Source: Opitutales bacterium
Lineage (GTDB): Bacteria; Verrucomicrobiota; Verrucomicrobiia; Opitutales; T3Sed10-336
Direction of reading: 5' to 3'
Assembly: GCA_007130045.1 (NCBI GenBank)
Contig: SLTG01000053.1
Location: 1-35,921 of the forward strand
Length of the DNA: 35,921 bases
Shown: in pieces, positions 9,974 through 34,411 of the stretch
Layout: each line of letters opens with the position of its first letter
How positions within the stretch are numbered: position 1 is the first letter of the stretch
Translations under genes and position numbers: made by a program
The notes under the pieces: generated by a model
The model's input: only the letters and a program-made list of their open reading frames with translations
Told to the model about the DNA's origin: nothing
Database searches by the model: none

Positions 9974-10297
9974 TATTGATGTTGGTGCTATCGGTTCGTG
10001 TCTATAACGTCGAATCGATCCAACCTGATGAAACGGCATGTGGAAAGTTTTTTTTCTGTTTGATGGCGAGCCGGACCGCGCGGTTGCACGGACACCTGAT
10101 CGGGTTCACGGCGCCCGGAAGCAGCTGCCCGTGCTGATTACAGCGGAAAAATTTAAATTATTTCCCAAAAATCTGGACAACCCTCAACGGGCCTTATTTA
10201 GTAAGCGGAATTTCTGCAATTCAACTCAATTGGACGCCCCGTGGTTGTCGATCGCCGGGCGCCGAATTTACCAAGATCGCAAAGGTCAGTTCAGGGA
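9974..10297. promoter_or_regulatory. Divergent intergenic region between gnd and the ABC importer operon
   Basis: A 324-base region between two divergently transcribed genes, so it should hold both promoters. About 10155-10175 is A/T-rich (AAAAATTTAAATTATTT) against a GC-rich background, and A/T-rich patches recur to 10235. I could not place a -35/-10 pair with confidence. A 90-codon open frame across it has no recognisable content and overlaps the start of the importer gene in another frame, so I treat it as non-coding. Confidence 0.4.
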
Positions 10298-13200
10298 ATG
10301 GTCAAATTGAAAAGCGGTGGCATCTATGTTTTTTTGCTGGTTCTGGCGGGGGTTTTTTTGGTGGCGGTGTTTTACCTGTTCGGCGCGTTCTTCAGGCCGG
10401 ATATGCACGCCGAGCGCCTTGTCCACGATCCGGAGGTTGTCGCCGCGGTTGAAGCCGACCGTGACACGTCGTTCGATCCGGACGACCCGCCGGTGATTCA
10501 TGTGGATGTCGACTACGGCGAAGGTGAGTCGGCGGCATGGTATCCCAAAGGCGAGTCTCCGATCCTGGCGGAATTGGTCGAGGAAGGACGGATTGATCCG
10601 GTGGCTCAGCGGGTCGGACCGCAACCGACCGTTATCAGGGGCGTGGAAGGGATCGGGAACTACGGCGGGACGTGGTACCGTGTCTCTCCCACGGAAGGGG
10701 ATGTCGGTGTAATAAATTGGCGATTGGCCGGCGACCGTTTTTTGCGCTGGTCGCCTTTGGGGTATCCGCTTAAGGCGAACCTCGCCAGGGATTGGGAAGT
10801 GTCGGACGATCGCCGCGAGTACATCATTCACATGCGAGAGGGGGTGCGCTGGTCGGACGGACACCCGTTCACGGCGCGCGACATCCTCTACTGGTGGGAG
10901 TACGAGGTTCAGCATTTCGAGCAAAGGCCCCAACACATGATGATTCGGGGGGAACTTCCAACTGTCGAGAAGATCGACGAGTTGACGGTCCGCATTACGT
11001 TTCCCTATCCGAACGCGATGTTTCCGGAATGGCTGGCGAAGTCGGAGCTCTGGGCGCCCGAGCACTATCTGAAGCAGTTTCATCCCGAGGCGGGCGATCC
11101 CGAGAAGATCGCCGCGATGATGGAGGTCCAGGGAGTTCCCACCGCGCGTGCGGCCTATTTTCGATTGAAGGAAACCCGCAATCCCGAACACCCGCGGATG
11201 TGGCCCTGGGTGCCCCGGAGCTATCAGGCAACCCCGCCGTATGAGTTCTTGCGCAATCCGTATTACTTTCAGGTGGACGTGGAGGGCAATCAGTTGCCGT
11301 ACGTGGACCGGATTCTGGTGGATATCCGTTCCGAGGGCATGATCTCCGTCACAGCCGCGGCCGGGGATATCACGATGCAGATGCGGCACATCCGGTATGA
11401 GGACCACACGCTGTACATGAACGAGCGGGACCGCAACGACTTTGACGTTTATTACTGGTTCAAGGGGGAGCGTTCAGTGTTTTGCGTTTTCCCGAACATG
11501 AATCGGATGGTGGATCCGAATCGACCGGAGACGCGGTGGAAGAACGAGTATTTGAACAAAAAGGAATTCCGTCAGGCAATGTCGCTGGCGATCAACCGGG
11601 AGGAGATCATCCGGGCGGATTATGACGGTCTGACCGAGCCGGCCCAACTCGATCCCGGCCCGGAATCGCCCTTCCACAACCCGCGCCTGTTCAAGAGCTT
11701 TACCGAGTACGATCCGGAGCGCGCGAATAAAATGCTCGACGAGATCGGACTCTCCAGGCGCGACGCCGCAGGGTACCGTACGTTTCCCGACGGTACGCCA
11801 ATGGCGTTCAACCTCCACGTGACGGACTTCACCGGGACCGGACCGTCGGATTTTCTCATCACGCATTGGTCGGAGGTCGGCGTGCGGGTGGTGTTGCATG
11901 AGCGTGCGCGATCTCTTTGGCAAGCCCTTCAGAGCGGTTTGGAGCATGACTTCACGGTGTGGACCGGCGAAAGCGAATTTTATCCGATCGTGGAGGCACG
12001 TAACTTTGTGCCGACAAAAAATCACTCGTTCTTCGCGCCGGGGTTCGCGGCTTGGTATATGCGGGGCGGCCTGTACGGCCATCCCGAAGCCTGGGAGCAC
12101 CCTCGCGCGATAGAACCTCCCGAGGACCACCCACTCCGGCGCGCTATGGAAATCCTGGAGGAGGCCGTGGGGATCGAAGGTATCGACGAACAGGTCGCGG
12201 TATTCAACGAAGCTCTTGAGATCGCAGCGGACAACGTCTGGAGCATTAACATCAGCACTCCGCCGCCCCAGTTGGTAATCGTGCAGAAGGGTTTTCGGAA
12301 CGTCCCGCGCAACGCCATCACCGGTCATATCTTCAACACTCCAGCCAACGCGGGAATCGAGACGTTTTTCTTCGACGAACCAAGCGATTCGCCCGGTGCG
12401 ATCGCCCAGATGAAGGAAGATCTGGCCAACGTTCGCCCCGATCCGAGCATGACGGTGAGCGGAGACGTTGGATTGGACGATACGACCGCCGGAGACTTCG
12501 TGGGTTCGTTCGTTCGTTATCTGATTTACGGAACGCTTCTCCTTGGGGGGGTGTTGCTTGTGCTTAGGCATCCGTTTATCGCGCGCCGGTGTATCATCCT
12601 GATCCCGACTCTTTTGGTGATTTCCATAGTGACGTTTGTCATCATTCAGCTCCCTCCAGGGAATTTCATCGACGCCCGGATAATCCAACTGGAAATGGAG
12701 GGCGATCTGTCGGCCATCCAGGAGGTCGAGGAGCTGAGGAACATTTTCCATGTGGAAGACCCGGCCGTGGTGCAGTATTTTCGCTGGCTCGGACTGCATT
12801 GGTTCGTGTCTTTTGATTCGTCCGATAAAGGGCTCCTGCAGGGATCTCTCGGACGTTCAATGGAAGACGCGCGCCTGGTCAACGACGTGGTGGGAGACCG
12901 GATCCTCCTGACGCTTGTGATTTCGATTTTCACGGTTTTGTTCACCTGGGCGTTGGCCATTCCCATCGGCATCTATTCCGCCGTGCGCCAGTATTCAATT
13001 GGCGACTACCTTTTTACGCTGATCGGTTTCATTGGCATGTGTATCCCCAATTTCCTGCTCGCGCTGATCCTCATGTATATCAGTGCAGCGGTGTTCGACG
13101 CCCAGGTCAGCGGTTTGTTCTCGCCTGAGTACGCGGGGCAACCGGACTGGACATGGGGCAAATTCGTGGATCTGCTGCAGCATATCTGGGTGCCCGTTGT

Positions 13201-13597
13201 GGTGATCGGCACTGCGGGCACGGCGTGGATGATCCGGGTGATGCGGGGCAATTTGCTTGACGAACTCCGTAAACCCTACGTGGTGACCGCCCGTGCGAAA
13301 GGGGTCCGTCCGATGAAGCTCCTTCTTAAATACCCGGTGCGGATGGCGTTGAACCCTTTTATTTCCGGGATCGGGCAGATCTTTCCACAGCTTATTTCCG
13401 GGGGGGCGATCGTGGCGATCGTCTTGAGCCTGCCGACTGTAGGGCCGCTTTTGCTCAGCGCATTGATGGCCCAGGACATGTACCTTGCGGGGTCGATGTT
13501 GATGGTCCTGAGTCTGCTGACGGTCTTCGGCACATTGGTGAGTGACTTGTTGCTGATGTGGGTCGATCCACGCATCCGGATGGGAGGTGCACAATGA
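10298..13597 (+). CDS. Fused solute-binding protein (family 5) and DppB-type permease
   Basis: One uninterrupted 1099-residue frame joins two usually separate ABC-importer parts. A helix at about 8-31 anchors a long periplasmic domain (to about 730) with family-5 peptide-binding features: LARDWEVSDD, the hallmark MREGVRWSDGHPFTARDI, and FRQAMSLAINREEI. A second helix (about 737-758) crosses back, followed by basic RHPFIARRC. A DppB-type permease then starts at IPTLLVISIVTFVIIQLPPGNF, with five or six helices and an EAA-like loop in VTARAKGVRPMKLLLKYPVR. The anchors place the binding domain outside and the permease N terminus inside. Start chosen at MVKLKSGG; the Shine-Dalgarno is weak. Its stop overlaps the next start by 4 bases. 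Substrate probably oligopeptides, by family only. Confidence 0.9.
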   Translation: MVKLKSGGIYVFLLVLAGVFLVAVFYLFGAFFRPDMHAERLVHDPEVVAAVEADRDTSFDPDDPPVIHVDVDYGEGESAAWYPKGESPILAELVEEGRIDPVAQRVGPQPTVIRGVEGIGNYGGTWYRVSPTEGDVGVINWRLAGDRFLRWSPLGYPLKANLARDWEVSDDRREYIIHMREGVRWSDGHPFTARDILYWWEYEVQHFEQRPQHMMIRGELPTVEKIDELTVRITFPYPNAMFPEWLAKSELWAPEHYLKQFHPEAGDPEKIAAMMEVQGVPTARAAYFRLKETRNPEHPRMWPWVPRSYQATPPYEFLRNPYYFQVDVEGNQLPYVDRILVDIRSEGMISVTAAAGDITMQMRHIRYEDHTLYMNERDRNDFDVYYWFKGERSVFCVFPNMNRMVDPNRPETRWKNEYLNKKEFRQAMSLAINREEIIRADYDGLTEPAQLDPGPESPFHNPRLFKSFTEYDPERANKMLDEIGLSRRDAAGYRTFPDGTPMAFNLHVTDFTGTGPSDFLITHWSEVGVRVVLHERARSLWQALQSGLEHDFTVWTGESEFYPIVEARNFVPTKNHSFFAPGFAAWYMRGGLYGHPEAWEHPRAIEPPEDHPLRRAMEILEEAVGIEGIDEQVAVFNEALEIAADNVWSINISTPPPQLVIVQKGFRNVPRNAITGHIFNTPANAGIETFFFDEPSDSPGAIAQMKEDLANVRPDPSMTVSGDVGLDDTTAGDFVGSFVRYLIYGTLLLGGVLLVLRHPFIARRCIILIPTLLVISIVTFVIIQLPPGNFIDARIIQLEMEGDLSAIQEVEELRNIFHVEDPAVVQYFRWLGLHWFVSFDSSDKGLLQGSLGRSMEDARLVNDVVGDRILLTLVISIFTVLFTWALAIPIGIYSAVRQYSIGDYLFTLIGFIGMCIPNFLLALILMYISAAVFDAQVSGLFSPEYAGQPDWTWGKFVDLLQHIWVPVVVIGTAGTAWMIRVMRGNLLDELRKPYVVTARAKGVRPMKLLLKYPVRMALNPFISGIGQIFPQLISGGAIVAIVLSLPTVGPLLLSALMAQDMYLAGSMLMVLSLLTVFGTLVSDLLLMWVDPRIRMGGAQ

Positions 13598-14778
13598 CGA
13601 CATTTCTGCAGAAACGCGCGCAGGAAATCCGCGAAGGGAAGGTGCCGGTCAAAGGCGCCGCAGAAACGGGGGTTTCCGTAGGGGAGCTGTCCCAGTGGCA
13701 ACTGGTTCGGAGGCGTTTCAAACGTCACCGCTTGGCGGTATTCTCCCTGTACGTTTTGATCGTGCTGTACCTGGCGGCGGCGTTTTGTGAGTTCGTCGCT
13801 CCCTATTCCCGGGAGTGGCGAAGCCTGGACTACATGTACGCACCGCCCCAGCTTCCGAAATTCAACTTCGAGCACGGCTGGTACGTTGACGCCATAGTGA
13901 TGGACGTGGATCCCATCACGCTTCAGAAGCGTTTTACCTATGTGGAGGACGAGGTGGTTCCATTGTCATTCTTTGTCAAGGGAGAGCCGTACAGATTGTG
14001 GGGCATGTTCGACATGGAACGACGCTTCTTCGGTGTGGATCACCGTGCGGTGGAAAGGGGGGAGGTCCCGGCCGAAAAGGCGACGTTTTATTTTATGGGA
14101 GCGGACAAATACGGCCATGACATTTTCAGCCGGTTGATCTTCGGCTCGCGAATAAGTTTATCGATCGGGATGATCGCGATCGTCCTCACCTCAATTCTCG
14201 GGATACTGATCGGCGGAATATCCGGGTACATGGGAGGTGCGGTGGACGATTTTATTCAGCGGTCCATAGAGATCGTGAATTCGTTCCCCCAGTTGCCGCT
14301 GTGGCTGGCTCTTGCCTCTATCATGCCTCCCGAATGGCCGTTGCTCGTGATGTACCTGGGGATAACCATCGTCCTGAGTCTTTTGGGATGGACCGGCTTG
14401 GCGCGGGTGGTGCGCGGGAAGATCCTGTCGCTTCGCGAAGAGGATTACGCTGTCGCCGCACGGCTGCTGGGCGCCAGTCACGGACGGGTTCTGTTCCGGC
14501 ATCTGGTTCCCGGCTTCACCAGTCATATTATCGTTGTTCTTACGTTGAGCGTGCCCGTAATGATCCTTGGGGAAACAGCGTTGAGCTTTCTGGGGCTTGG
14601 CCTTCGACCGCCGGTCGTAAGCTGGGGTGTGATGCTTCAGGATACGATGCAGTTGCAGGCTGTGGCGAACTATCCCTGGCTGCTGATGCCGGTCATGCCG
14701 ATTATCGTTACCGTGCTCGCGTTTAATTTCCTCGGGGACGGTATGCGGGATGCCGCCGACCCTTACACTTCGCTATAA
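13594..14778 (+). CDS. DppC/OppC-type ABC importer permease
   Basis: A 394-residue permease, the second membrane half of the importer. The first helix (about 46-68) follows the typical RRFKRHRLAVFSL start. An extracytoplasmic loop of about 100 residues is longer than usual and ends in MGADKYGHDIFSRLIFGSRISL, the family motif just before the permease core. Further helices and an EAA-like segment around LGASHGRVLFRHLVPG follow. The ATG is preceded by GGGAGG at good spacing and overlaps the previous stop (ATGA), so translation is coupled to the fused binding-protein/permease gene. The long loop may contact the tethered binding domain; that is inference. Confidence 0.9.
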   Translation: MTTFLQKRAQEIREGKVPVKGAAETGVSVGELSQWQLVRRRFKRHRLAVFSLYVLIVLYLAAAFCEFVAPYSREWRSLDYMYAPPQLPKFNFEHGWYVDAIVMDVDPITLQKRFTYVEDEVVPLSFFVKGEPYRLWGMFDMERRFFGVDHRAVERGEVPAEKATFYFMGADKYGHDIFSRLIFGSRISLSIGMIAIVLTSILGILIGGISGYMGGAVDDFIQRSIEIVNSFPQLPLWLALASIMPPEWPLLVMYLGITIVLSLLGWTGLARVVRGKILSLREEDYAVAARLLGASHGRVLFRHLVPGFTSHIIVVLTLSVPVMILGETALSFLGLGLRPPVVSWGVMLQDTMQLQAVANYPWLLMPVMPIIVTVLAFNFLGDGMRDAADPYTSL

Positions 14779-14782
14779 TCGC

Positions 14783-15892
14783 ATGGAAGAGAAACAAGAG
14801 AGTTCAACAGCGAACATACCGTCGACGCCGGGGCGCGACCGCGTGCTCGAAGTGAAGGATTTGCAGACTTGGTTCCATACGGAGGAGGGAGTGATTCCCG
14901 CGGTGGATGGCGTCACTTTCTCGCTGGATCGAGGGAAGACACTGGCGCTCGTGGGTGAAAGCGGATGCGGCAAGAGCGTGACCGCGTTTTCAATCCTTCG
15001 CTTGATTCAAAGGCCCGGCGAAATTGTCGGAGGCACCATCAATCTCTATCCGGAAAAGGACGAGAGCATCGAAATGGTCGGGCTCCATGAGAAGTCGGAT
15101 ATGATTTATCATGTACGTGGCGGGGTCGCGAGCATGATTTTCCAAGAGCCGATGACGGCATTGAGCCCCGTGCATACGATCGGCAACCAGCTATGCGAGG
15201 CGATTCTTACCCACCAGGAAGTCACGAACGCAGAGGCGGAACGGCGGGCCGTTGAAATGTTGCGCAGGGTGGGGATCCCGGGACCGGAAAGTCGCCTCAA
15301 GCAATACCCGTTCGAATTCAGCGGCGGGATGCGCCAGCGGGTGGTGATTGCGATGGCGCTGCTCTGTAATCCGAAGCTTCTGATCGCAGACGAGCCGACC
15401 ACGGCGCTGGATGTGACGATCCAGGCGCAGATTCTTGGCCTGATCAAGGATCTGCAGAAGGAAACGAACACCTCCGTCTTGCTGATTACGCACAACCTCG
15501 GCGTGGTGGCCCAGACGGCGGACGATGTCGCGGTGATGTATCTTGGACGCATCGTGGAGCATGCGGACGTGCGGACTCTTTTGAAGCGTCCCATGCATCC
15601 TTATACAATGGGCCTGCTCGAGTCCCTTCCCAGCGTCAATGTCCGTGAAAAGAGATTGAGGGCAATCAGCGGAAGTGTTCCATCGCTGACCCAGTTGCCC
15701 ACCGGCTGCCCCTTTCACCCGCGGTGTCCCTATGCGGAACCGGGGCGCTGTGACGTCGGCGGACCTCCGGAGCTGCGTGAGGTCGACGACGGACGAAAGG
15801 TCGCCTGTATCCGCGCCGAGGAGATTCAGGAGGAATTGAATCTTGCTTCTGCCGGGGGTGGACCTGTGAAGAAAGGGGGATCCGAAGAATGA
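14783..15892 (+). CDS. DppD/OppD-type ABC importer ATPase
   Basis: A 369-residue ATPase energising the importer. Walker A GESGCGKS lies at 58-65, the signature is FSGGMRQRV, and Walker B is LLIADEPTTALD. The C-terminal oligopeptide-ATPase extension has the Cys-containing motif TGCPFHPRCPY, typical of the Dpp/Opp ATPase C terminus. A charged insert of about 15 residues (around YPEKDESIEMVG) sits between Walker A and the Q-loop. The ATG at 14783 lies 4 bases after the dppC-like stop; an upstream in-frame ATG at 14750 would overlap by 29 bases and is an alternative. It probably forms a heterodimer with the next gene product. Confidence 0.92.
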   Translation: MEEKQESSTANIPSTPGRDRVLEVKDLQTWFHTEEGVIPAVDGVTFSLDRGKTLALVGESGCGKSVTAFSILRLIQRPGEIVGGTINLYPEKDESIEMVGLHEKSDMIYHVRGGVASMIFQEPMTALSPVHTIGNQLCEAILTHQEVTNAEAERRAVEMLRRVGIPGPESRLKQYPFEFSGGMRQRVVIAMALLCNPKLLIADEPTTALDVTIQAQILGLIKDLQKETNTSVLLITHNLGVVAQTADDVAVMYLGRIVEHADVRTLLKRPMHPYTMGLLESLPSVNVREKRLRAISGSVPSLTQLPTGCPFHPRCPYAEPGRCDVGGPPELREVDDGRKVACIRAEEIQEELNLASAGGGPVKKGGSEE

Positions 15893-16935
15893 GCGGGAAC
15901 GGTGACCAAAGCGTGAATAAGGAGGAACCGATCCTTAGAGTGCGCAATCTGTGCAAGCATTTTCCGATTCGCAGCAAAGGTTTTATCCGTCGCCGGATCG
16001 GGACGGTTAAGGCGGTGGATCAGATGAATTTCGAGCTGATGCCGGGCGAGACCCTTGGGCTCGTAGGGGAAAGCGGTTCGGGTAAGACCACCGCTGCCCG
16101 GGCGATTCTGCGGGCCTTCGAACCGACGAGCGGGGAAGTCCTGTTTCGTACAAACGGACGAACCGTTGATCTCGCGTCGCTCGGCGAGCGGGAGCTCAAG
16201 CCATTGCGCCAGCAGATGCAGATGATCTTCCAGGATCCTTTCTCATCCTTGAACCCCCGTATGACTGTCGGGGACATTGTCGGGGAGCCTCTGATGATTC
16301 ATAGCCTGGCCGAGGGGCGCGAATTGCGACGCCGCGTGGAGGAGGCGTTGGTCCGGGTCGGACTGAAGGCGGAGCACCGCGTACGGTACCCGCACGCGTT
16401 CAGCGGAGGGCAGCGACAACGCATCGGAATTGCCCGGGCATTGATCATGAATCCGGCCCTGATCGTTGCCGACGAAGCCGTCTCCGCGCTCGACGTATCG
16501 GTGCAGGCACAGGTGATCAATCTGTTGGAGGACATCCAGGAGGAGTACAAACTCACCTATATTTTCGTCGCGCACGACCTGAGTGTTATCCGGCACATTT
16601 GCGACAGGGTGGCGGTGATGTACGGCGGCAAAGTCGTCGAACTCGCCGAAACAGAGGCGCTGTTCGAGAATCCGCAACATCCCTACACCCGCGCCCTGAT
16701 CTCAGCAATCCCGTTTCCGGACCCTGACGTTCGCCTCAAATTCGAAATTAGCGGAGAGGCCGCCGATCCCGCCGATCTCCCCGCCGGTTGCAGCTTCCAC
16801 CCTCGCTGCCCACACGCCAAATCCGGAGTTTGCGACATCCGCGGCGAACCTCCCCAGTTGCGTGAGATCAGCCCCGGCCGTCGCGCGGCCTGTGTGCGAA
16901 TCGAGGAGATAGAGGAGATATCAACGCAAAAATAA
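15889..16935 (+). CDS. DppF/OppF-type ABC importer ATPase
   Basis: A 348-residue ATPase, partner of the preceding one. Walker A GESGSGKT lies at 60-67. Q-loop MIFQDPFSSLNPR, signature FSGGQRQRIGIARAL, Walker B LIVADEAVSALD and the C-terminal motif AGCSFHPRCPH follow in order. The reading ADEAVSALD instead of ADEPTSALD is common in the DppF branch. The start overlaps the dppD-like stop by 4 bases, with GGGGGA upstream as a ribosome-binding site. It closes the importer operon; no clear terminator hairpin lies between its stop and the tRNA-Leu at 17030. Confidence 0.92.
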   Translation: MSGNGDQSVNKEEPILRVRNLCKHFPIRSKGFIRRRIGTVKAVDQMNFELMPGETLGLVGESGSGKTTAARAILRAFEPTSGEVLFRTNGRTVDLASLGERELKPLRQQMQMIFQDPFSSLNPRMTVGDIVGEPLMIHSLAEGRELRRRVEEALVRVGLKAEHRVRYPHAFSGGQRQRIGIARALIMNPALIVADEAVSALDVSVQAQVINLLEDIQEEYKLTYIFVAHDLSVIRHICDRVAVMYGGKVVELAETEALFENPQHPYTRALISAIPFPDPDVRLKFEISGEAADPADLPAGCSFHPRCPHAKSGVCDIRGEPPQLREISPGRRAACVRIEEIEEISTQK

Positions 16936-26345: not shown

Positions 26346-26984
26346 TTGAAGGCGATGCGGTTTATGTTGTTTAACGGCGTTCTCCTGGCCATCCTTTTCT
26401 TCTTGCCGTTCGGCGGGGAGTTGAGAGCCCAGGATGAGGAAGGTCAGGTCGCGGTCCAACGGGTGATATTCAACCGGAACGCATCCCTGACCGGCGATAC
26501 CCGAAGGTGGCTCGAAACGGTCGTCGAGTTAAACGTATCGAGGCCCGCGGGGGAGGACGTGTTCAATCCGCGTTACGTGGATAACATTCAGATCGATCTG
26601 TATATTTCCTTCGACGTTTCGCGCGGGGATGTCTCCCGCACCCGATTCTATCGCTCATCGGTTGAACTCCCCACGCTCGAGCGGGGCAGGCACGAAATCC
26701 GTTTTTTCCTTCCCCCGGAAGTTATTGGGCGCGATAGAATTACGAGCGAACCCAGCACCTATTTGGTCCAGCTTTCGGTTGACGGTTTGCGGCAGGAATT
26801 GTCATCGGACGCGCGGGCGAGGATTTTGCGGCGGGATGAGGTCCTGGAGAGTTTTATGCGCAGAGTGGAGAGCGAGGCGGGCGCGAACGACGGAATATTG
26901 TTGCCGATTCACCTGACTCCGTTTGTAAATGAAAGACAGTATTTCCGCGACATGCCGTCGATCCGACGTTCGAACGTGCGATAA
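26346..26984 (+). CDS. Small exported pilus-locus protein, Amuc_1102-like
   Basis: A 212-residue exported protein. A signal peptide (hydrophobic LLAILFFLPF, likely cut after LRAQ near residue 28) leads to a beta-rich domain with WLETVVELNVSRP, YISFDVSR and VELPTLERGRHEIRFFLPPE, then an Arg-rich C-terminal part. The fold is unknown to me. The assignment rests mainly on position: first of five genes whose order and sizes match the Amuc_1102 to Amuc_1098 pilus locus. The start is probably TTG, since GAGGGGG sits 5 bases before it, whereas the ATG at 26355 would be 14 bases away. No catalytic motif is visible. Confidence 0.72.
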   Translation: MKAMRFMLFNGVLLAILFFLPFGGELRAQDEEGQVAVQRVIFNRNASLTGDTRRWLETVVELNVSRPAGEDVFNPRYVDNIQIDLYISFDVSRGDVSRTRFYRSSVELPTLERGRHEIRFFLPPEVIGRDRITSEPSTYLVQLSVDGLRQELSSDARARILRRDEVLESFMRRVESEAGANDGILLPIHLTPFVNERQYFRDMPSIRRSNVR

Positions 26985-27028
26985 CGGCGCGAAAAGACTC
27001 TTTCAGAGTTCAATAAAGCAGAACAAAC

Positions 27029-28744
27029 ATGAGTTCACAAAGATTTGCCCAGGTTGTCGATTGCGGAGGCACCCACGTTTCCGTCGGATTCTTTTCCGCG
27101 AAAGACGGCAATGTGACGTTGGACGGGTTCTTCACTGAAAGTATCGGGTGTGATTTTTCCAACGAAGAAGAGTGGATCACCGCAGTGGTTCAGGCGACGG
27201 AGGTGGTTCACCTGCAGAAGAAACTGCGGGGAAGGATCTCGCTCGTGGTTCCCGGGCATCTGCTTCTGATGAAGTTTCTGAAGATTCCCCATGTTGCGAA
27301 GTCGAAGCGCGACCAGATCGTGCGATTCGAGGCGCAGCAGAACATCCCCTTCCCGCTGAACGAGGTGGTCTGGGATTACGAGGTGGTGGCCGATGACGGG
27401 ACCGAGTTCGAAGTCGCGCTTGTGGCGGTCAAACTGGATATCATCGACCGGCTTTGCAGTGAGTTTACCCATCTGGGCGTGGAGGTTCAGCTTGTCGAGC
27501 CGTCCTGCATGGCCCAGTACAACGCCTTTCACTACAGCCATCCGGAAACCGACGAAAACATCCTCGTCGCCAACATAGGGGGAAAATCCTCCAACTTGCT
27601 GTTTATCAGTGAAGGCGGTTTTTTCGTCCGAAACATATCCCTTGCCGGGAACAGCCTGACCCACGCGATCGCGGAGGAGACGGGACAATCCCTCGCCGAT
27701 GCCGAAGCCGCGAAGTGGGAATTCATCGCCGCCGCTTACGAAGAGGGGGGAGAGGAGCGTTTTCAGGGCCACGTCGATTCCTTCCTGAAGCGCCTGGCTA
27801 TGGAGACAACGCGTTCGGTCGTCAATTTCCGCCGCCAGAGCGGAGAGGAAAAGATCGACCGCATTTTCCTGACCGGCGGGGGCGCCCTGATTCCCGGGAT
27901 CTCCGAGTACCTGAGCGAAAAGCTCAAACTGCCGGTCGAGTACTACTCGCCGATCGAGGGCATCAGCCTTGGCAGCGACGTCGATCCCGAACTCGCGGAA
28001 GGGTACCAGCACAATATTGGAGAGCTGCTCGGGTGCGCCCTGCGGGATATTGGAGAGTCGAAGACCCATTTCAATCTCCTTCCGCCGTTGATTGCACGCC
28101 AGATGCGCTTCAGGGAAAAGAAGCCGATGCTGATGACAACCGCAGTCGTTCTTGTCGCATCCGCCTTCCTTCCTATCTTCGGAATGAACTATATCGCGTT
28201 TGTGTACGAGGACAACATTGAGGAATTGGACGCCCGTCTAATGCCCCTCCAGAACTTGCACAGCCAATACGAGGAAATCACCAATGAGGTCGAGGGGGTC
28301 CGCAACCGGATCGCGGCGTTGCAGGGGCTCGGCGAATCAAGGGGCAATTGGATCGACTTTTTTCAAGACATACAGCAGCGCCTGACGGAAGTGGAGGACG
28401 TCTGGCTGGAGCGAATGGAGATCGTGCGATCGAACGGCGCGCCGCAAGAGCGGCGAGCCGGCGGCGGTCTGTTTCGTCAGGAGGGTCCGGAGCCGGACGT
28501 GGAGGAATTGGACGAAAATGAGCGGGCACCGGTCCGCCTCCGGTTCGTCGGTCGAATGCTCGACCGTGAAAATCCGCTTGAAACCGCCAGCCAGGACACG
28601 CGAGTTCGCGTCAGAGCCTTATTTAACAGCATGCTGCGATCGGAGTTTATCAGCCGAATAGAGAATGAAGAATTCGATGTGGGCACGCCCGGCATTCTCC
28701 GGTTTGACGTGATGATGGCCGTCGATCCTGAAAGACCTCTGTGA
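27029..28744 (+). CDS. PilM-like actin-fold protein fused to a PilN-like segment, Amuc_1101-like
   Basis: A 571-residue protein. Residues about 1-345 are an actin-like ATPase of the PilM family: VVDCGGTHVSVGFF at the start, ANIGGKSSNLLFISEGG near 180, and IFLTGGGALIPGISEYLSEKL near 280. After a break comes a membrane helix (about 370-390, TTAVVLVASAFLPIFGMNYI), a coiled-coil-like stretch (EELDARLMPLQNLHSQYEEI) and a periplasmic part with RLTEVEDVWLERMEIVR, the layout of PilN. In classical type IV pili PilM and PilN are separate proteins that bind each other; here they form one chain bridging cytoplasm and periplasm. The C-terminal stop overlaps a possible GTG start of the next gene. Confidence 0.85.
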   Translation: MSSQRFAQVVDCGGTHVSVGFFSAKDGNVTLDGFFTESIGCDFSNEEEWITAVVQATEVVHLQKKLRGRISLVVPGHLLLMKFLKIPHVAKSKRDQIVRFEAQQNIPFPLNEVVWDYEVVADDGTEFEVALVAVKLDIIDRLCSEFTHLGVEVQLVEPSCMAQYNAFHYSHPETDENILVANIGGKSSNLLFISEGGFFVRNISLAGNSLTHAIAEETGQSLADAEAAKWEFIAAAYEEGGEERFQGHVDSFLKRLAMETTRSVVNFRRQSGEEKIDRIFLTGGGALIPGISEYLSEKLKLPVEYYSPIEGISLGSDVDPELAEGYQHNIGELLGCALRDIGESKTHFNLLPPLIARQMRFREKKPMLMTTAVVLVASAFLPIFGMNYIAFVYEDNIEELDARLMPLQNLHSQYEEITNEVEGVRNRIAALQGLGESRGNWIDFFQDIQQRLTEVEDVWLERMEIVRSNGAPQERRAGGGLFRQEGPEPDVEELDENERAPVRLRFVGRMLDRENPLETASQDTRVRVRALFNSMLRSEFISRIENEEFDVGTPGILRFDVMMAVDPERPL

Positions 28745-28755
28745 GGCACCTATTT

Positions 28756-29661
28756 ATGTCCTGGTTCAAGCGAAATTCTCTTTTCTTTTCGGCACTCATT
28801 CTCCTGGGGATCGTATTGATCGCCCAAATCGTGGTGTTTTTCCAGCAAAGGGAAAAGGCCGAGCAAATGCGCCAATCCTTCGAGGCGAAGATCGAGGAGT
28901 ACCAATGGCTGGCCGAGTACAATCCCTCCCTGACCCGCGAGAATATCGAGATCGCGCGCCAGGACAGGGAACACGTCCGTGAGAACCTGGAACGCATTCG
29001 CGAGGCGCTTGGCGCCGAGGCGGATGTTACCGAGTTGTTTGGGGATCCTCCGGCGGAGCGTTCGGACGCGTATTTCGACATTATTTCATTCGCTGAAGAA
29101 TACCGGGAGAAAGCACGCCAGGTCGACGTAAACGACGGCGCCGGCGTTCGCCTCCCGTCGGATGATTACATGTTCGGCTTTTCCCGCTACGCCGATCGAG
29201 GTCCGCCGAACGAACTGATTGAACTCGTCTTCAAGCAGCGAAAGATCGTCGCTTACCTGCTGGACACGCTGTATGAAGTCAGGCCCGTGGAGTTGGAGCG
29301 CGTCGCCCGGGGGGACGCGGCGGAACGCCGGGGAATCGGTGCGCCCGCCGGCGGACAGGGGGGCGACTTCTTCAGGATCGCCCCGGAGGTGTCGGCCCGC
29401 ATTCCCGATTTCGTCGAAACCCACGAGTTTCGGCTTGTCTTCACCGGATACACGGCGACCTTGCGGGAATTTCTTAACCGGATTGCATCCCCGGAAGGGC
29501 AAGTGCCCCTGATTGTCCGCAGCGTTGAAGTCACTCCGGTCGAAGGGGGGCAGGCCGCCGCGCGGGCGGAAGCCGATGGAGCGGTGCCCATCGTCGCGTC
29601 CAACCTTTCCCGTTTTGTCGTCACTCTTGAGTTTATCGAGCTGGTCTCTCCCTCCGAATAA
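28756..29661 (+). CDS. Single-pass pilus-locus protein, Amuc_1100-like
   Basis: A 301-residue protein with an N-terminal membrane helix (about 8-28, LFFSALILLGIVLIAQIVVFF) after MSWFKRN. A long charged helix (about 30-95) that looks like a coiled coil follows, then an alpha/beta C-terminal domain with VSARIPDFVETHEFRLVFTG and LIVRSVEVTPV. The plan resembles PilO: helix, coiled coil, ferredoxin-like domain. Position identifies it as the equivalent of Amuc_1100, the Akkermansia membrane protein known for effects on host metabolism and TLR2; that activity cannot be assumed here. The ATG at 28756 was preferred (GAGG 9 bases upstream) over GTG at 28741, which overlaps the previous stop. Confidence 0.78.
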   Translation: MSWFKRNSLFFSALILLGIVLIAQIVVFFQQREKAEQMRQSFEAKIEEYQWLAEYNPSLTRENIEIARQDREHVRENLERIREALGAEADVTELFGDPPAERSDAYFDIISFAEEYREKARQVDVNDGAGVRLPSDDYMFGFSRYADRGPPNELIELVFKQRKIVAYLLDTLYEVRPVELERVARGDAAERRGIGAPAGGQGGDFFRIAPEVSARIPDFVETHEFRLVFTGYTATLREFLNRIASPEGQVPLIVRSVEVTPVEGGQAAARAEADGAVPIVASNLSRFVVTLEFIELVSPSE

Positions 29662-29688
29662 CGGGCCGCTTAGCACCTGGTCATCACG

Positions 29689-30507
29689 ATGTTTACCAAT
29701 TACTACGACAAGATCCTGTTTGGAATATCCCTCATTATTCTCATTGGTTTTTCCATTGTATTCTATCAGCGAAGCCAGCAGGTTATCGAGGAGCTCGAAA
29801 CGGATCTCCCCCCCCCACGGGTGGATAATGTCTACGAGCTGACTCCGGACACCCCTCTGGAGTTGGAGCCATCATTCTGGTCGGCCCCGGGTCCTCAAAG
29901 CCCCGGTCAGGCATGGGTGTACGATGTGTTCACGCCGCCTTCCATCTACTACAATGAAGCCGACGACCGGTTTGTTTCGGAGCCGCCTGGCATTGAAGCG
30001 CGGGATGAAGAGGTTCTCGCAGTCGAATTCGTCGAGTTCCGCCGGGCGCCGTTCCGGATCCAGTTGACCGGACAAGCCGGGAGCGAAGGCGAGTACACCC
30101 TGATGTTTCGAAATGTGGAAACCGGAAGGTACTACGTCACGCGTCTGGGGCGCACACTGGACGAGGTCGATGTCGAGATAATCGATTTCAATATCATTCG
30201 TGAAGAAGTCAACGGTGTGGTCGGGCGGACCTCCAAGGCGGTGATCCTCGACCAGCGCTCCGGCGAGGAGGTGACGCTCATTCAGGGGGAAACGAAATAC
30301 ACTGACGAACCGGCGATTTTCGTCAGGACCAACGAGCAACCGCCCCGCACGATTAACGCCCGCCTTGGCGAAGTGTTCGAAGTCGGCGAGCACACTTACC
30401 GGGTGGAAGACTTCACGCTCGAACCGCCCGAAGTCATTTTAATCAAGACCTCGCCTGATCGCGAGGAGCCGGAGCGATCAAGCCTGAGTCCCGGCCAGAG
30501 TTTCTGA
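29689..30507 (+). CDS. Single-pass pilus-locus protein, Amuc_1099-like
   Basis: A 272-residue protein with one N-terminal membrane helix (about 9-26, ILFGISLIILIGFSIVFY). A Pro-rich linker (DLPPPRVDNVYELTPDTP) and a periplasmic beta-rich domain follow, including PFRIQLTGQAGSEGEYTLMF and TINARLGEVFEVGEHTYRVEDF. The tail is acidic and Ser-rich. It recalls the periplasmic PilP-like partner that links inner-membrane proteins to a secretin, though no sequence motif proves that. It is fourth in the locus, 27 bases after the previous stop and 124 bases before the secretin gene. No strong ribosome-binding site. Confidence 0.75.
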   Translation: MFTNYYDKILFGISLIILIGFSIVFYQRSQQVIEELETDLPPPRVDNVYELTPDTPLELEPSFWSAPGPQSPGQAWVYDVFTPPSIYYNEADDRFVSEPPGIEARDEEVLAVEFVEFRRAPFRIQLTGQAGSEGEYTLMFRNVETGRYYVTRLGRTLDEVDVEIIDFNIIREEVNGVVGRTSKAVILDQRSGEEVTLIQGETKYTDEPAIFVRTNEQPPRTINARLGEVFEVGEHTYRVEDFTLEPPEVILIKTSPDREEPERSSLSPGQSF

Positions 30508-30546
30508 ACGCATTGTTGCCGTTTGCGATTGAAATTTGCGGGGAAT

Positions 30547-30570
30547 GCGCCTATCAGGGGCTTGTTTTTT
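30547..30570 (+). terminator. Weak hairpin with T-run before the secretin gene
   Basis: GCGCCT (30547-30552) pairs with AGGGGC (30556-30561), with one mismatch and a 3-base loop, followed at once by TTGTTTTTT. This could be a leaky intrinsic terminator that lowers readthrough into the secretin gene. Downstream, TAAAAT at 30604-30609 is a good -10-like hexamer, although no convincing -35 accompanies it, so an internal promoter is possible. Confidence 0.35.
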
Positions 30571-30631
30571 CCAATTCTCGAAAATTATTTTTGCCTTTTA
30601 ATCTAAAATATACCTTCAATTGTCCTGACTT

Positions 30632-33463
30632 ATGAAAAACTACCGAGCGACGAAAACTCTTCTGGCTTTCCTATCTTGTTGCTTGATTGCCCTATCCGGC
30701 ATGCAAACGACCGATGTTTACGCGCAAACGGATATGGAGACCAAGATCCGACTGATGTCGGAAGCGCTCACCGCCCGCAATGCGGGTGATCTGGAAACCG
30801 CAAAGGAAAAACTGGAAGAGCTTCGTGCGATCGCACCCGAAGACCGCCGTGTCGAGCAGTTGTTGGCAACCGTGGAAGCCGAGATCGAGGCGGCCGAAAA
30901 CGATGATCCCGATGTCGTGGTCGAGCCGGAGCCCGCACGGCCGGCAGTCGACACTCGCCGCATCGACCTTTGGGCGCAGGCGATCGATGCACGCAGAGAG
31001 GGGAACATCGACGAAGCGCGCCGCGTCGCGGAATTGATCGGTGAAGAATACCCTCAGGACACCCGGGTGGCTCCGTTCCTCGACGGATTGGCCGACCGTC
31101 GCGTCGCTCTTGAGGAAGCCCGCCGTATCGAAACCGTCAGTACGGAAGCCCGGGCGGTTCTCGGTTCCGCTCCCGATTGGATTGCCGCTGGCGAACACGA
31201 CCGCGTGGTTGATGAAATCAACTCCGTTCTCGAAGATCTGCCGGAAAACGTGCGCACCGTCACCTTGATCGGCGAGCTGAAGAAACTGCGTTCCGAAGCG
31301 GTCGCAAAAAAGGCGCTCGCCCAGCTGAAAGCAGGGCGGATCGATGAGGCCGAAGCCACACTTGCCGTTTACTACGAGTTCGAGGAAACCAACCGCGCGG
31401 CGCAGCAAACCGCGCGGGAAGTCGAGCGCGGCTTGGACGATCCCTATTATATTCCGATCGACGACGTCAGCCCGGAGTTTCGCGGCGACCGTCAGCGCGT
31501 GCGTACCGCCGTGCGGCGCGGGCGAGCCCAGTTCGTTCACGGTGACCTGCAGGGAGCGGAAGACACCTTCCGCCGTGTCGAGGCAATGGATCCGAACAAT
31601 CCCCAGGCCAAGGCATTCCTCAGGCTGATTTCCGACGAACGCGCGGCGGGCTCCCATCTGAATCGCCAGAAGACGCGCGCCCAGCTCCTCGAAGAAGTGG
31701 CCGACTTGTGGCAGCGACCACAGATATTCCTCGACGAGGAGCTTATAATCGAACAACCCGAAGAGCTGCCGCTCGAGGCGAAAATGCGGGAGATTGTTAT
31801 TCCCTTGGTGAATTTTGACGAGGTGCCTCTGCGTCAGGTCATTTCCACACTCAATGAGCTCAATCCGGAGTACGACGAAGAAGACGGTACCGGTGTGAAT
31901 ATTGTTTTGCGCGATCCCGACCGGCTCGATCCGGAGATTTCCATTGAGCTTCGAAACCTCACCCTGTACCGGGTCCTCGAGCTGATCCTGCAGGATGTTC
32001 CGTTCAGGTTCGAGGCTCAGGAGGACATCGTATTGGTAGCCCCGGGCGAAGGATTGCCGTCGGGTTTTGAGACCGATTTCTTTTCGGTGGACAGCCGGAC
32101 GCTGATACGAATCACCGGCACCGACGTGGCGGGGACCCCCCAGCAGCAGGAGGACGATCCTTTTGCCGATCCCGCTCCCGCCGACGCAGGCCCGCCTGTG
32201 GGCGAAACCAGCCAGCGAATACGGAGCTTTCTGCAGGCCGCCGGGGTCTCCTTCCCTCCGCAATCAAGCCTCGTCTTCGACGGGTCGTCAATCATCGTCA
32301 CCAACACCCGTCGCAACCTGGACAGCATTCGGCGAGTTCTCCTCCGCTACGCGGATGTCCGCCAAGTCGAGATTGAAGCGCGTTTCCTCGAAGTTCAACA
32401 GGGAGCGCTCGACGAACTCGGCTTCAACTACCAAGTCCAGGGCCGCGGTTCTCCTGTGTTCGATACGCAGTCCGGGCTTCCGATCATCGACTCATCCGGC
32501 AATCAGGTAGTCGGTAATTTTCGGCAGATCTTCGGCAGCGCCAACCGGCAGCTTTCCGGCGTGCAGGGCGGAGTGACCGGTTCGGGGGGGCAGGTCACGA
32601 TCGACAGCCCTGAGCTCAGTTTATCCATCCCGCAGGGTCCTCCCGACCTTCCGGGTCAAGTTCCGCTCGGCATCGGCGCCCCCGATCTCGCGGTCATGTC
32701 GGGCCGCATCGGAGGTTACGGGGTGGACGCAGCCATTCGGGCGCTATCCCGCCAAACCGGGTCCGACTTGCTCAGTGCTCCAAAAGTGACCGTTCTTTCC
32801 GGCGAAACCGCCCAGATCGTTGTCGCGCAGGAACTCCGGTACCCTGAAAGTTTTTCGGATCCCCAGAGTCAGGTGAGTCAGGCCGGAGGTGTAACCGCCG
32901 GCGCCACCGCCGCCGCCGGCGTCACGATCACCGCAGGCACGCCGCAGGATTTCCAGTCTCGCAACGTGGGTGTGGAACTCGTTGTCACTCCCACGGTTGA
33001 GGACGACGAGCGAAGCATTACCCTCGACTTGCATCCACAGGTAACCGAGTTTGAAGGTTTCGTGGAGTTCGGAGGGCCGAGTGTTGCGATTCAGGGTGAT
33101 ACCACGGTGACGATTCCTTCCGGGTTCTTCCAGCCGATTTTCGTCTCGCGCTCCATTCAAACCAAGGTCACCGTCTGGGACGGCGCTACGCTCGTCATGG
33201 GGGGATTGACTCGTGAAGAGGTGCGCACAATCAAAGACAAGGTTCCCGTTCTCGGTGATATTCCGCTTCTGGGCCGGCTTTTCCGGAGTGAGGGTGAAGC
33301 ATCATCGAAGCGGAATCTTCTGATTTTCGTGACGGCTAATCTTGTCAGTCCGGGAGGGTCTCTGAAGAATCAGGAACTTCGAAACGTGAGCCCCGGCTCC
33401 ACCTACCAGGTGCCGACGCACGTGACGCCAGGAGGTCCGGCGGCACGTATTCGCGGCGATTAA
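30632..33463 (+). CDS. Secretin-type outer-membrane pilus protein, Amuc_1098-like
   Basis: A 943-residue exported secretin forming the outer-membrane channel of the locus. The signal peptide (to about VYAQ, residue 32) leads to a helical TPR-like region (about 35-340) with repeated ALTARNAGDLETAKEKL-type units. N-domains follow: VNFDEVPLRQVISTLNELNP (near 395), and a second one with RNLDSIRRVLLRYADVRQVEI (near 570). The secretin domain begins about residue 690 and includes LLSAPKVTVLSGETAQIVVAQE, a Gly/Ala-rich gate (GGVTAGATAAAGVTITAG), VGVELVVTPTV, and the C-terminal VPVLGDIPLLGRLFRSE. A secretin with an N-terminal TPR array differs from the usual PilQ layout and fits the Amuc_1098 type. 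Last gene of the locus. Confidence 0.88.
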   Translation: MKNYRATKTLLAFLSCCLIALSGMQTTDVYAQTDMETKIRLMSEALTARNAGDLETAKEKLEELRAIAPEDRRVEQLLATVEAEIEAAENDDPDVVVEPEPARPAVDTRRIDLWAQAIDARREGNIDEARRVAELIGEEYPQDTRVAPFLDGLADRRVALEEARRIETVSTEARAVLGSAPDWIAAGEHDRVVDEINSVLEDLPENVRTVTLIGELKKLRSEAVAKKALAQLKAGRIDEAEATLAVYYEFEETNRAAQQTAREVERGLDDPYYIPIDDVSPEFRGDRQRVRTAVRRGRAQFVHGDLQGAEDTFRRVEAMDPNNPQAKAFLRLISDERAAGSHLNRQKTRAQLLEEVADLWQRPQIFLDEELIIEQPEELPLEAKMREIVIPLVNFDEVPLRQVISTLNELNPEYDEEDGTGVNIVLRDPDRLDPEISIELRNLTLYRVLELILQDVPFRFEAQEDIVLVAPGEGLPSGFETDFFSVDSRTLIRITGTDVAGTPQQQEDDPFADPAPADAGPPVGETSQRIRSFLQAAGVSFPPQSSLVFDGSSIIVTNTRRNLDSIRRVLLRYADVRQVEIEARFLEVQQGALDELGFNYQVQGRGSPVFDTQSGLPIIDSSGNQVVGNFRQIFGSANRQLSGVQGGVTGSGGQVTIDSPELSLSIPQGPPDLPGQVPLGIGAPDLAVMSGRIGGYGVDAAIRALSRQTGSDLLSAPKVTVLSGETAQIVVAQELRYPESFSDPQSQVSQAGGVTAGATAAAGVTITAGTPQDFQSRNVGVELVVTPTVEDDERSITLDLHPQVTEFEGFVEFGGPSVAIQGDTTVTIPSGFFQPIFVSRSIQTKVTVWDGATLVMGGLTREEVRTIKDKVPVLGDIPLLGRLFRSEGEASSKRNLLIFVTANLVSPGGSLKNQELRNVSPGSTYQVPTHVTPGGPAARIRGD

Positions 33464-33541: not shown

Positions 33542-34411
33542 ATGGCGAAATGGGTCGTGTTCGACGCTTTGAACCTGGCTTTCCGTTGCTTTTACGCGAT
33601 TCCGGAACTGACTCGGAACGATGGGTTTCCTACCAACGCGCTGCATGGATGGGTTCGCTCGCTTTGGCGGGTGTCGGACGAATACGCGCCGAAGAATTCC
33701 GTGGTCGTGTTTGACGTCGGCGAAGACAAGAGAAAAAAGGAATTGCTTCCCGAATACAAGGAGCACCGGAAGGAAATGCCGGAGGCACTCGCGGCCCAGT
33801 TGCCGTATCTGAAAGAGTCCGCCGCGCTCATGGGACTGCGGACCGTCGAGCTTTCCGAAACCGAGGCGGACGATCTGATTGCGACACTCGCGGCACGCCT
33901 GACCGGTCAAGGGGATGAAGTTTTTATCGTCAGCGCCGACAAGGATCTCGCCCAGTGCGTCAATTCGAATGTGCGGATTCTTCTTCCTCCACCGACCGCT
34001 CGGGCGAAGGCGGGATGGACCGTATTGGATGAGAAGGGAGTCGAGGACAAGTACGGTGTGCCGCCCTCCGGAATCGCCGATCTTCTGGCGCTTGTTGGCG
34101 ACACCTCCGACAACATTCCCGGGCTCGCCGGGGTCGGTCCGAAGACGGCGGCGAAGTGGCTTCGCGAGTACGGGGATATCGAAGAGATAATTTCAAATGC
34201 CGGAACTCTGTCGCCGCGGCGGTTTCGCGAGCAGGTCGGTGAAAAAAAGGAGGAATTGCGCCGGAATCTGAAACTGACACGACTGAGGCGCGATCTGGAA
34301 TTGCCGGGATTCGAGGAACACCGCGCCGATCCCGAGGGGTTGATCGCGTTTCTCGAGAAAATGGAAATGAAAGGCGCTCTCGCCGACGCAAAGAAACGAT
34401 ACCTGCGATGA
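33542..34411 (+). CDS. Stand-alone 5'-3' exonuclease / flap endonuclease
   Basis: A 289-residue nuclease with the fold of the N-terminal domain of DNA polymerase I but without a polymerase domain. Metal-binding acidic residues are in order: D8 (VFDALN), EADD (108-111), SADKD (131-135) and GDTSDNIPG (186-194). A helix-hairpin-helix follows (GVGPKTA, 197-203). The basic PEYKEHRKEMPE segment (70-81) matches the substrate-binding helix. It would remove RNA primers or 5' flaps. Length is normal for stand-alone members. Whether it complements a PolA lacking this domain cannot be told from this window. Confidence 0.9.
   Translation: MAKWVVFDALNLAFRCFYAIPELTRNDGFPTNALHGWVRSLWRVSDEYAPKNSVVVFDVGEDKRKKELLPEYKEHRKEMPEALAAQLPYLKESAALMGLRTVELSETEADDLIATLAARLTGQGDEVFIVSADKDLAQCVNSNVRILLPPPTARAKAGWTVLDEKGVEDKYGVPPSGIADLLALVGDTSDNIPGLAGVGPKTAAKWLREYGDIEEIISNAGTLSPRRFREQVGEKKEELRRNLKLTRLRRDLELPGFEEHRADPEGLIAFLEKMEMKGALADAKKRYLR

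Follow-up and report, generated by a model that had tools for sequence, protein, structure and literature searches.

A distant Opitutales counterpart of the Akkermansia Amuc_1102-1098 cluster, very probably the alignment subcomplex of a type IVa pilus

Studies of the Akkermansia protein Amuc_1100 treat it as a probiotic protein, and most often it is termed an outer-membrane or pili-like protein. The cluster that encodes it, Amuc_1102-1098, has itself been termed pili-like (PMC5332112), and Amuc_1098 was placed in the outer membrane by immuno-EM and named PilQ (PMC4960237). The mucin utilisation locus (MUL) genes of Akkermansia are required for mucin accumulation (review PMC12418764). One such locus, MUL2, is likened to a secretion system in PMC13174399, where its synteny is published for Akkermansiaceae and is reportedly often conserved in Verrucomicrobiales; a figure legend there shows a secretin, dephospho-CoA kinase and rho, and Amuc_1099 is termed uncharacterised. 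The text of that paper, as far as it was available, makes no mention of Opitutales or of motor genes.

The window – the whole stretch of 35,921 nucleotides analysed here – is one of the 146 contigs of a 3.4 Mb genome that is 97% complete, and whose nearest named relatives are Verrucomicrobia, Opitutia or Opitutales MAGs with isolate names that we read as sediment-like. Five intact open reading frames occupy 26346-33463 of its plus strand (Table 1); they are consecutive and follow the order Amuc_1102 to Amuc_1098, just as the first-pass annotation had proposed. Comparison of the same gene positions from 51 named loci and 40 further genome stretches showed this five-gene layout to be recurrent throughout Verrucomicrobiota: gene 1 keeps its position 5' of gene 2 across the phylum, and the exonuclease gene stands 3' of the secretin in many families. 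Two starts are ambiguous. Gene 1 may begin at TTG 26346, which is preceded by GAGGGGG, or at ATG 26355; gene 3 may begin at GTG 28741 or, as homologues favour and as is likely, at ATG 28756. Scans for promoters and terminators were uninformative. Positions 10241-16935 of the window hold an ABC transporter operon of the oligopeptide type; by inspection only, its first ORF (1118 aa) appears to join a substrate-binding protein and a permease in one chain.

Table 1. The five genes of the operon and the gene that follows them
Feature	Coordinates	Strand	Assignment	Basis
Gene 1	26346..26984	+	Amuc_1102/MUL2A-like small exported protein, 212 aa, Sec-type signal	hhalign, position
Gene 2	27029..28744	+	Amuc_1101 counterpart; PilM-like, TM, periplasmic tail	PF11104, NF045709
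Gene 3	28741..29661	+	Amuc_1100 counterpart; single-pass, PilO position	NF038287, hhalign
Gene 4	29689..30507	+	Amuc_1099 counterpart; TM helix and beta domains, predicted PilP/GspC equivalent	Structure model, hhalign
Gene 5	30632..33463	+	Amuc_1098 (PilQ) counterpart; TPR-containing secretin	PF00263, TPR, NF042912
Exonuclease	33542..34411	+	5'-3' exonuclease, PolA N-terminal type; conserved neighbour, outside the machine	PF02739, PF01367

A first issue is the distance that separates these genes from their Akkermansia namesakes. The NCBI Amuc_1098-1102 profiles match genes 2, 3, 4 and 5, while gene 1 has no NCBIfam or Pfam match, and every score falls below the equivalog cut-off: 355 of 650 bits for gene 2 (NF045709), a weak 62 of 180 for gene 3 (NF038287), 12.7 of 50 – barely a match – for gene 4, and 396 of 750 for gene 5 (NF042912, its best model). 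A genuine Akkermansia-type locus used as positive control (L125) passed all five NCBIfam cut-offs, and its proteins matched the solved chains of Amuc_1102 (7dsz) and Amuc_1100 (6lad, 6kny). For genes 1, 3 and 4 we compared profiles of Opitutales sets with those of Verrucomicrobiales sets by hhalign, which returned 96.5% (E 8.5e-10) for gene 1, against a profile that includes one Amuc_1102 protein, 99.7% (E 5e-27) for gene 3 and 98.7% (E 1.5e-16) for gene 4. Mismatched gene pairs gave 0.1-8%, except that partial stretches of genes 3 and 4 aligned with each other at 37-48%. The Opitutales gene 3 profile also reaches the Amuc_1100 chains 6kny/6lad (E 0.003). An Opitutales-only gene 1 profile found no relative in the PDB, 7DSZ (Amuc_1102) included, and the link between gene 1 and Amuc_1102 therefore rests on the profile-profile comparison. 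By sequence, then, the five genes correspond, at some distance, to the Akkermansia Amuc_1102-1098 cluster (PMC5332112, PMC13174399): order and strand are the same and all five genes are homologous, genes 2 and 5 by direct matches and genes 1, 3 and 4 by profile-profile comparison, so that the locus is of this type in the wider sense. One difference lies in gene 4, which lacks the TSP3-type calcium-loop insert (PF18884) seen in Amuc_1099-type proteins of Verrucomicrobiales (14 of the 34 homologues in alignment A1; for example L050:12923-13972).

With the type IVa PilMNOPQ systems of Myxococcus, Pseudomonas and Neisseria the locus shares a PilM domain, a PilP-like fold and a secretin, and its genome also has a PilT-containing motor cluster. 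Gene 2 opens with a PilM-like actin fold (about aa 1-340; PF11104 PilM_2, 97.8 bits against a cut-off of 27), followed by its membrane segment and a tail that carries an NLLPP motif. PF11104 was found in 29 of 29 gene 2 homologues, and the PilN Pfam model matched none of these 29. On layout and motif the C-terminal part appears PilN-like and the protein as a whole GspL-like; unlike in type IVa systems, PilM and the PilN-like part are here one protein. The PilO Pfam model does not match gene 3, for which a PilO assignment would be in line with its place in the operon. Gene 5 carries a secretin domain (PF00263, 123 bits against a cut-off of 27.5) and TPR matches, and scores 139 bits for GspD. 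Departures from the type IVa pattern are the N-terminal TPR region of this secretin, a connector predicted to be a transmembrane protein rather than a lipoprotein, and the additional exported protein encoded by gene 1.

The connector deserves closer attention. In an alignment-based model of gene 4 (mean pLDDT 79.6) a single N-terminal TM helix leads through a linker into beta domains; a model built without the alignment was useless (pLDDT 46.9). Foldseek by itself returned nothing significant (best E 0.023), and it was on realignment that the relevant matches came forward: first the GspC homology region of a GspC-GspD complex (3oss_C, Z 8.6, rmsd 1.8 over 63 of 65 residues), then three PilP structures (3jc8, Z 7.2; 2ivw, Z 7.0; 2lc4, Z 6.4), values that, being below 8, may reflect a common structural arrangement. 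The fifth match, just below the PilP set, is an unrelated chain (Z 5.9). Because the Foldseek E-values are non-significant and Z scores below 8 are ambiguous, the case rests on all of the top four matches belonging to one functional family and on the expected position in the operon. Together these predict a GspC/PilP secretin-binding domain in gene 4, and it is by this predicted fold that the protein resembles a type IVa PilP.

The first-pass annotation had seen no pilin, PilB, PilT or PilC gene near the locus. That absence is real, since genome-wide searches with PF00437, PF00482 and PF07963 match nothing on the window contig. Its further suggestion that parts might be encoded elsewhere is borne out: contig C92 carries coaE-rho-pilB-pilT-pilB-pilC, in which PilT scores 446 bits for TIGR01420 against a cut-off of 319 and one of the ATPases has a slightly better score with GspE than with PilB; the genome further holds 25 N_methyl prepilin matches and one prepilin peptidase (PF01478, on C3). 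Motor cluster and operon are thus unlinked here, and coaE-rho, which in Akkermansia relatives adjoins the locus, stands with the motor. The genome has four secretins, one in the operon and the others in sets on C68, C112 and C113. The C68 set is T2SS-like: it has a GspD-like secretin and an ATPase and GspF of its own. Another PilM/N/O/P/Q-like set occupies L027 6312-12990 on C112; its secretin is PilQ-like (TIGR02515, 214 bits), motor genes are lacking beside it, and a motorless assembly would be easier to argue for there than at 26346-33463. A cluster on C113 (L028 6261-13110) encodes an MshL/PilQ-like secretin and a PilB/MshE-type ATPase, together with a PilM-like and a single-pass protein. 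With four secretins present, and the C112 set motorless, the pairing of the C92 motor with the operon rests on relatives.

Two other Verrucomicrobiota genomes carry the motor 5' of the operon. Genome G157 has pilB-pilT-pilB-pilC, genes 1 to 5, one ORF and coaE-rho contiguously on one strand, and in G015, where the block is again contiguous, three prepilin-like genes stand between the motor and the five genes; pilin and motor genes next to the locus, which the first-pass annotation would have counted as refuting its proposal, thus occur in relatives, though not in the present genome. In a tree the C92 PilBa and PilBb group with the motors of these two genomes (clade support 1.0 for PilBb, a weak 0.49 for PilBa). 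Since coaE-rho lies 3' of the operon in many other orders and 5' of the motor in Opitutales, the arrangement suggests one ancestral block of operon, coaE-rho and motor that was later split. That the motor follows rho everywhere does not hold: it does so in Opitutales, and is absent from the stretch examined after rho in other orders.

Two further genomes of the same order, each 98% complete (G149, G176), are informative in another way: each has one secretin, of this type, and in each the PF00437 ATPases number exactly three, the pilB-pilT-pilB set adjoining pilC. Akkermansia-type genomes (G033, G021, G113) have two secretins, both matching the Amuc_1098 model, and one PilC gene. Among 195 Verrucomicrobiota genomes, the Amuc_1098 model (E < 1e-20) matched 182, PilC 188 and PilT 187; 18 genomes only pass the Amuc_1098 equivalog cut-off, and some of the weaker matches may be other secretins. 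PilC is present in all 182 secretin-bearing genomes, and the seven PilC-negative genomes also lack the secretin, a co-occurrence that reflects few independent events because the PilC-negative genomes are confined to two families. Two genomes (G116, G136) have the secretin and no PilT match. In several families two Amuc_1098-type secretin genes follow the PilM-like gene in tandem (L119, L120, L121, L124, L127). A reduced genome of 1.7 Mb (G108) retains an intact coaE-rho-pilB-pilT-pilB-pilC (L129), and no Amuc_1098-type secretin was found in it. Its sole secretin match is a frame broken by stops (L130 10731-12079); a first reading of this frame as a broken Amuc_1098-type copy was rejected, because it matches a GspD-like secretin.

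What, then, does the operon build? One of the two options that the first-pass annotation offered was an assembly distinct from a classical type IV pilus, and the MUL2 name would suit an envelope-spanning channel that is no pilus machine, for example one for glycan uptake or attachment in which no pilus is extended. No motor gene adjoins the locus in this genome, and both the requirement of Akkermansia MUL genes for mucin accumulation (PMC12418764) and the secretion-system-like description of MUL2 in PMC13174399 are in keeping with such a channel. We nevertheless consider it very improbable, and that first-pass option is not supported: where this secretin is the sole one, the genome has no PF00437 ATPases other than the pilB-pilT-pilB set next to pilC, and the operon adjoins the motor in G157 and the motor with prepilin-like genes in G015. 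Moreover, glycan use is compatible with pilus extension, which makes the question one of role more than of machine. Very improbable, too, is a type II secretion system drawing on the GspE/GspF-like parts of C92 or C68, for although gene 2, gene 4 and the secretin do recall GspL, GspC and GspD of the GspC, D, L, M set – the PilM-PilN fusion layout, the best structural match and the one GspE-leaning ATPase all point that way – C68 already holds a T2SS-like set, the secretin scores best with Amuc_1098 (396 bits, against 139 for GspD), and the motor linked in relatives includes PilT, a retraction ATPase not known to serve type II systems.

Our data – the homology of the five genes, the motor orthologues in the same genome, the linkage of the two in relatives and the predicted connector fold – make it very probable that the operon encodes the PilM(N)-O-P-Q alignment subcomplex of a Verrucomicrobiota type IVa pilus. 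Gene 2 would supply a cytoplasmic PilM fused to a PilN-like membrane and periplasmic part, as in GspL; gene 3 would occupy the place of PilO; gene 4, the PilP/GspC connector, would dock on the TPR-bearing PilQ secretin of gene 5; and gene 1 would be an exported accessory of the MUL2A type. The pilB-pilT-pilB-pilC motor and platform, the prepilins and the prepilin peptidase would be supplied from elsewhere in the genome: PilB and PilC would assemble pilins below the complex, the fibre would pass out through the secretin, and PilT would retract it. We infer that the complex assembles and a pilus forms in this organism, where it would probably serve attachment to surfaces or particles.

MUL2, to which the locus is related, is already published; what our analysis adds is the extension to Opitutales and beyond, the prediction that gene 4 has a PilP/GspC fold, and the connection with the motor. 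On balance we lean, if only slightly, towards regarding MUL2/Amuc_1098-1102 as the ancestral type IV pilus base of Verrucomicrobiota, with Amuc_1099 and Amuc_1100 as inner-membrane PilP- and PilO-like connectors rather than surface pilus subunits, and the uptake of mucin or other glycans as a purpose to which a retractable pilus was put later. The locus reaches beyond bacteria that live in mucus: most of the Verrucomicrobiota genomes sampled, sediment MAGs among them, have a related secretin. The interest of the finding lies in the native role of the Amuc_1098-1102 proteins, and for Amuc_1100 that role becomes testable from its placement next to a connector predicted to be PilP-like and, in related genomes, close to pilB-pilT-pilC motor genes.
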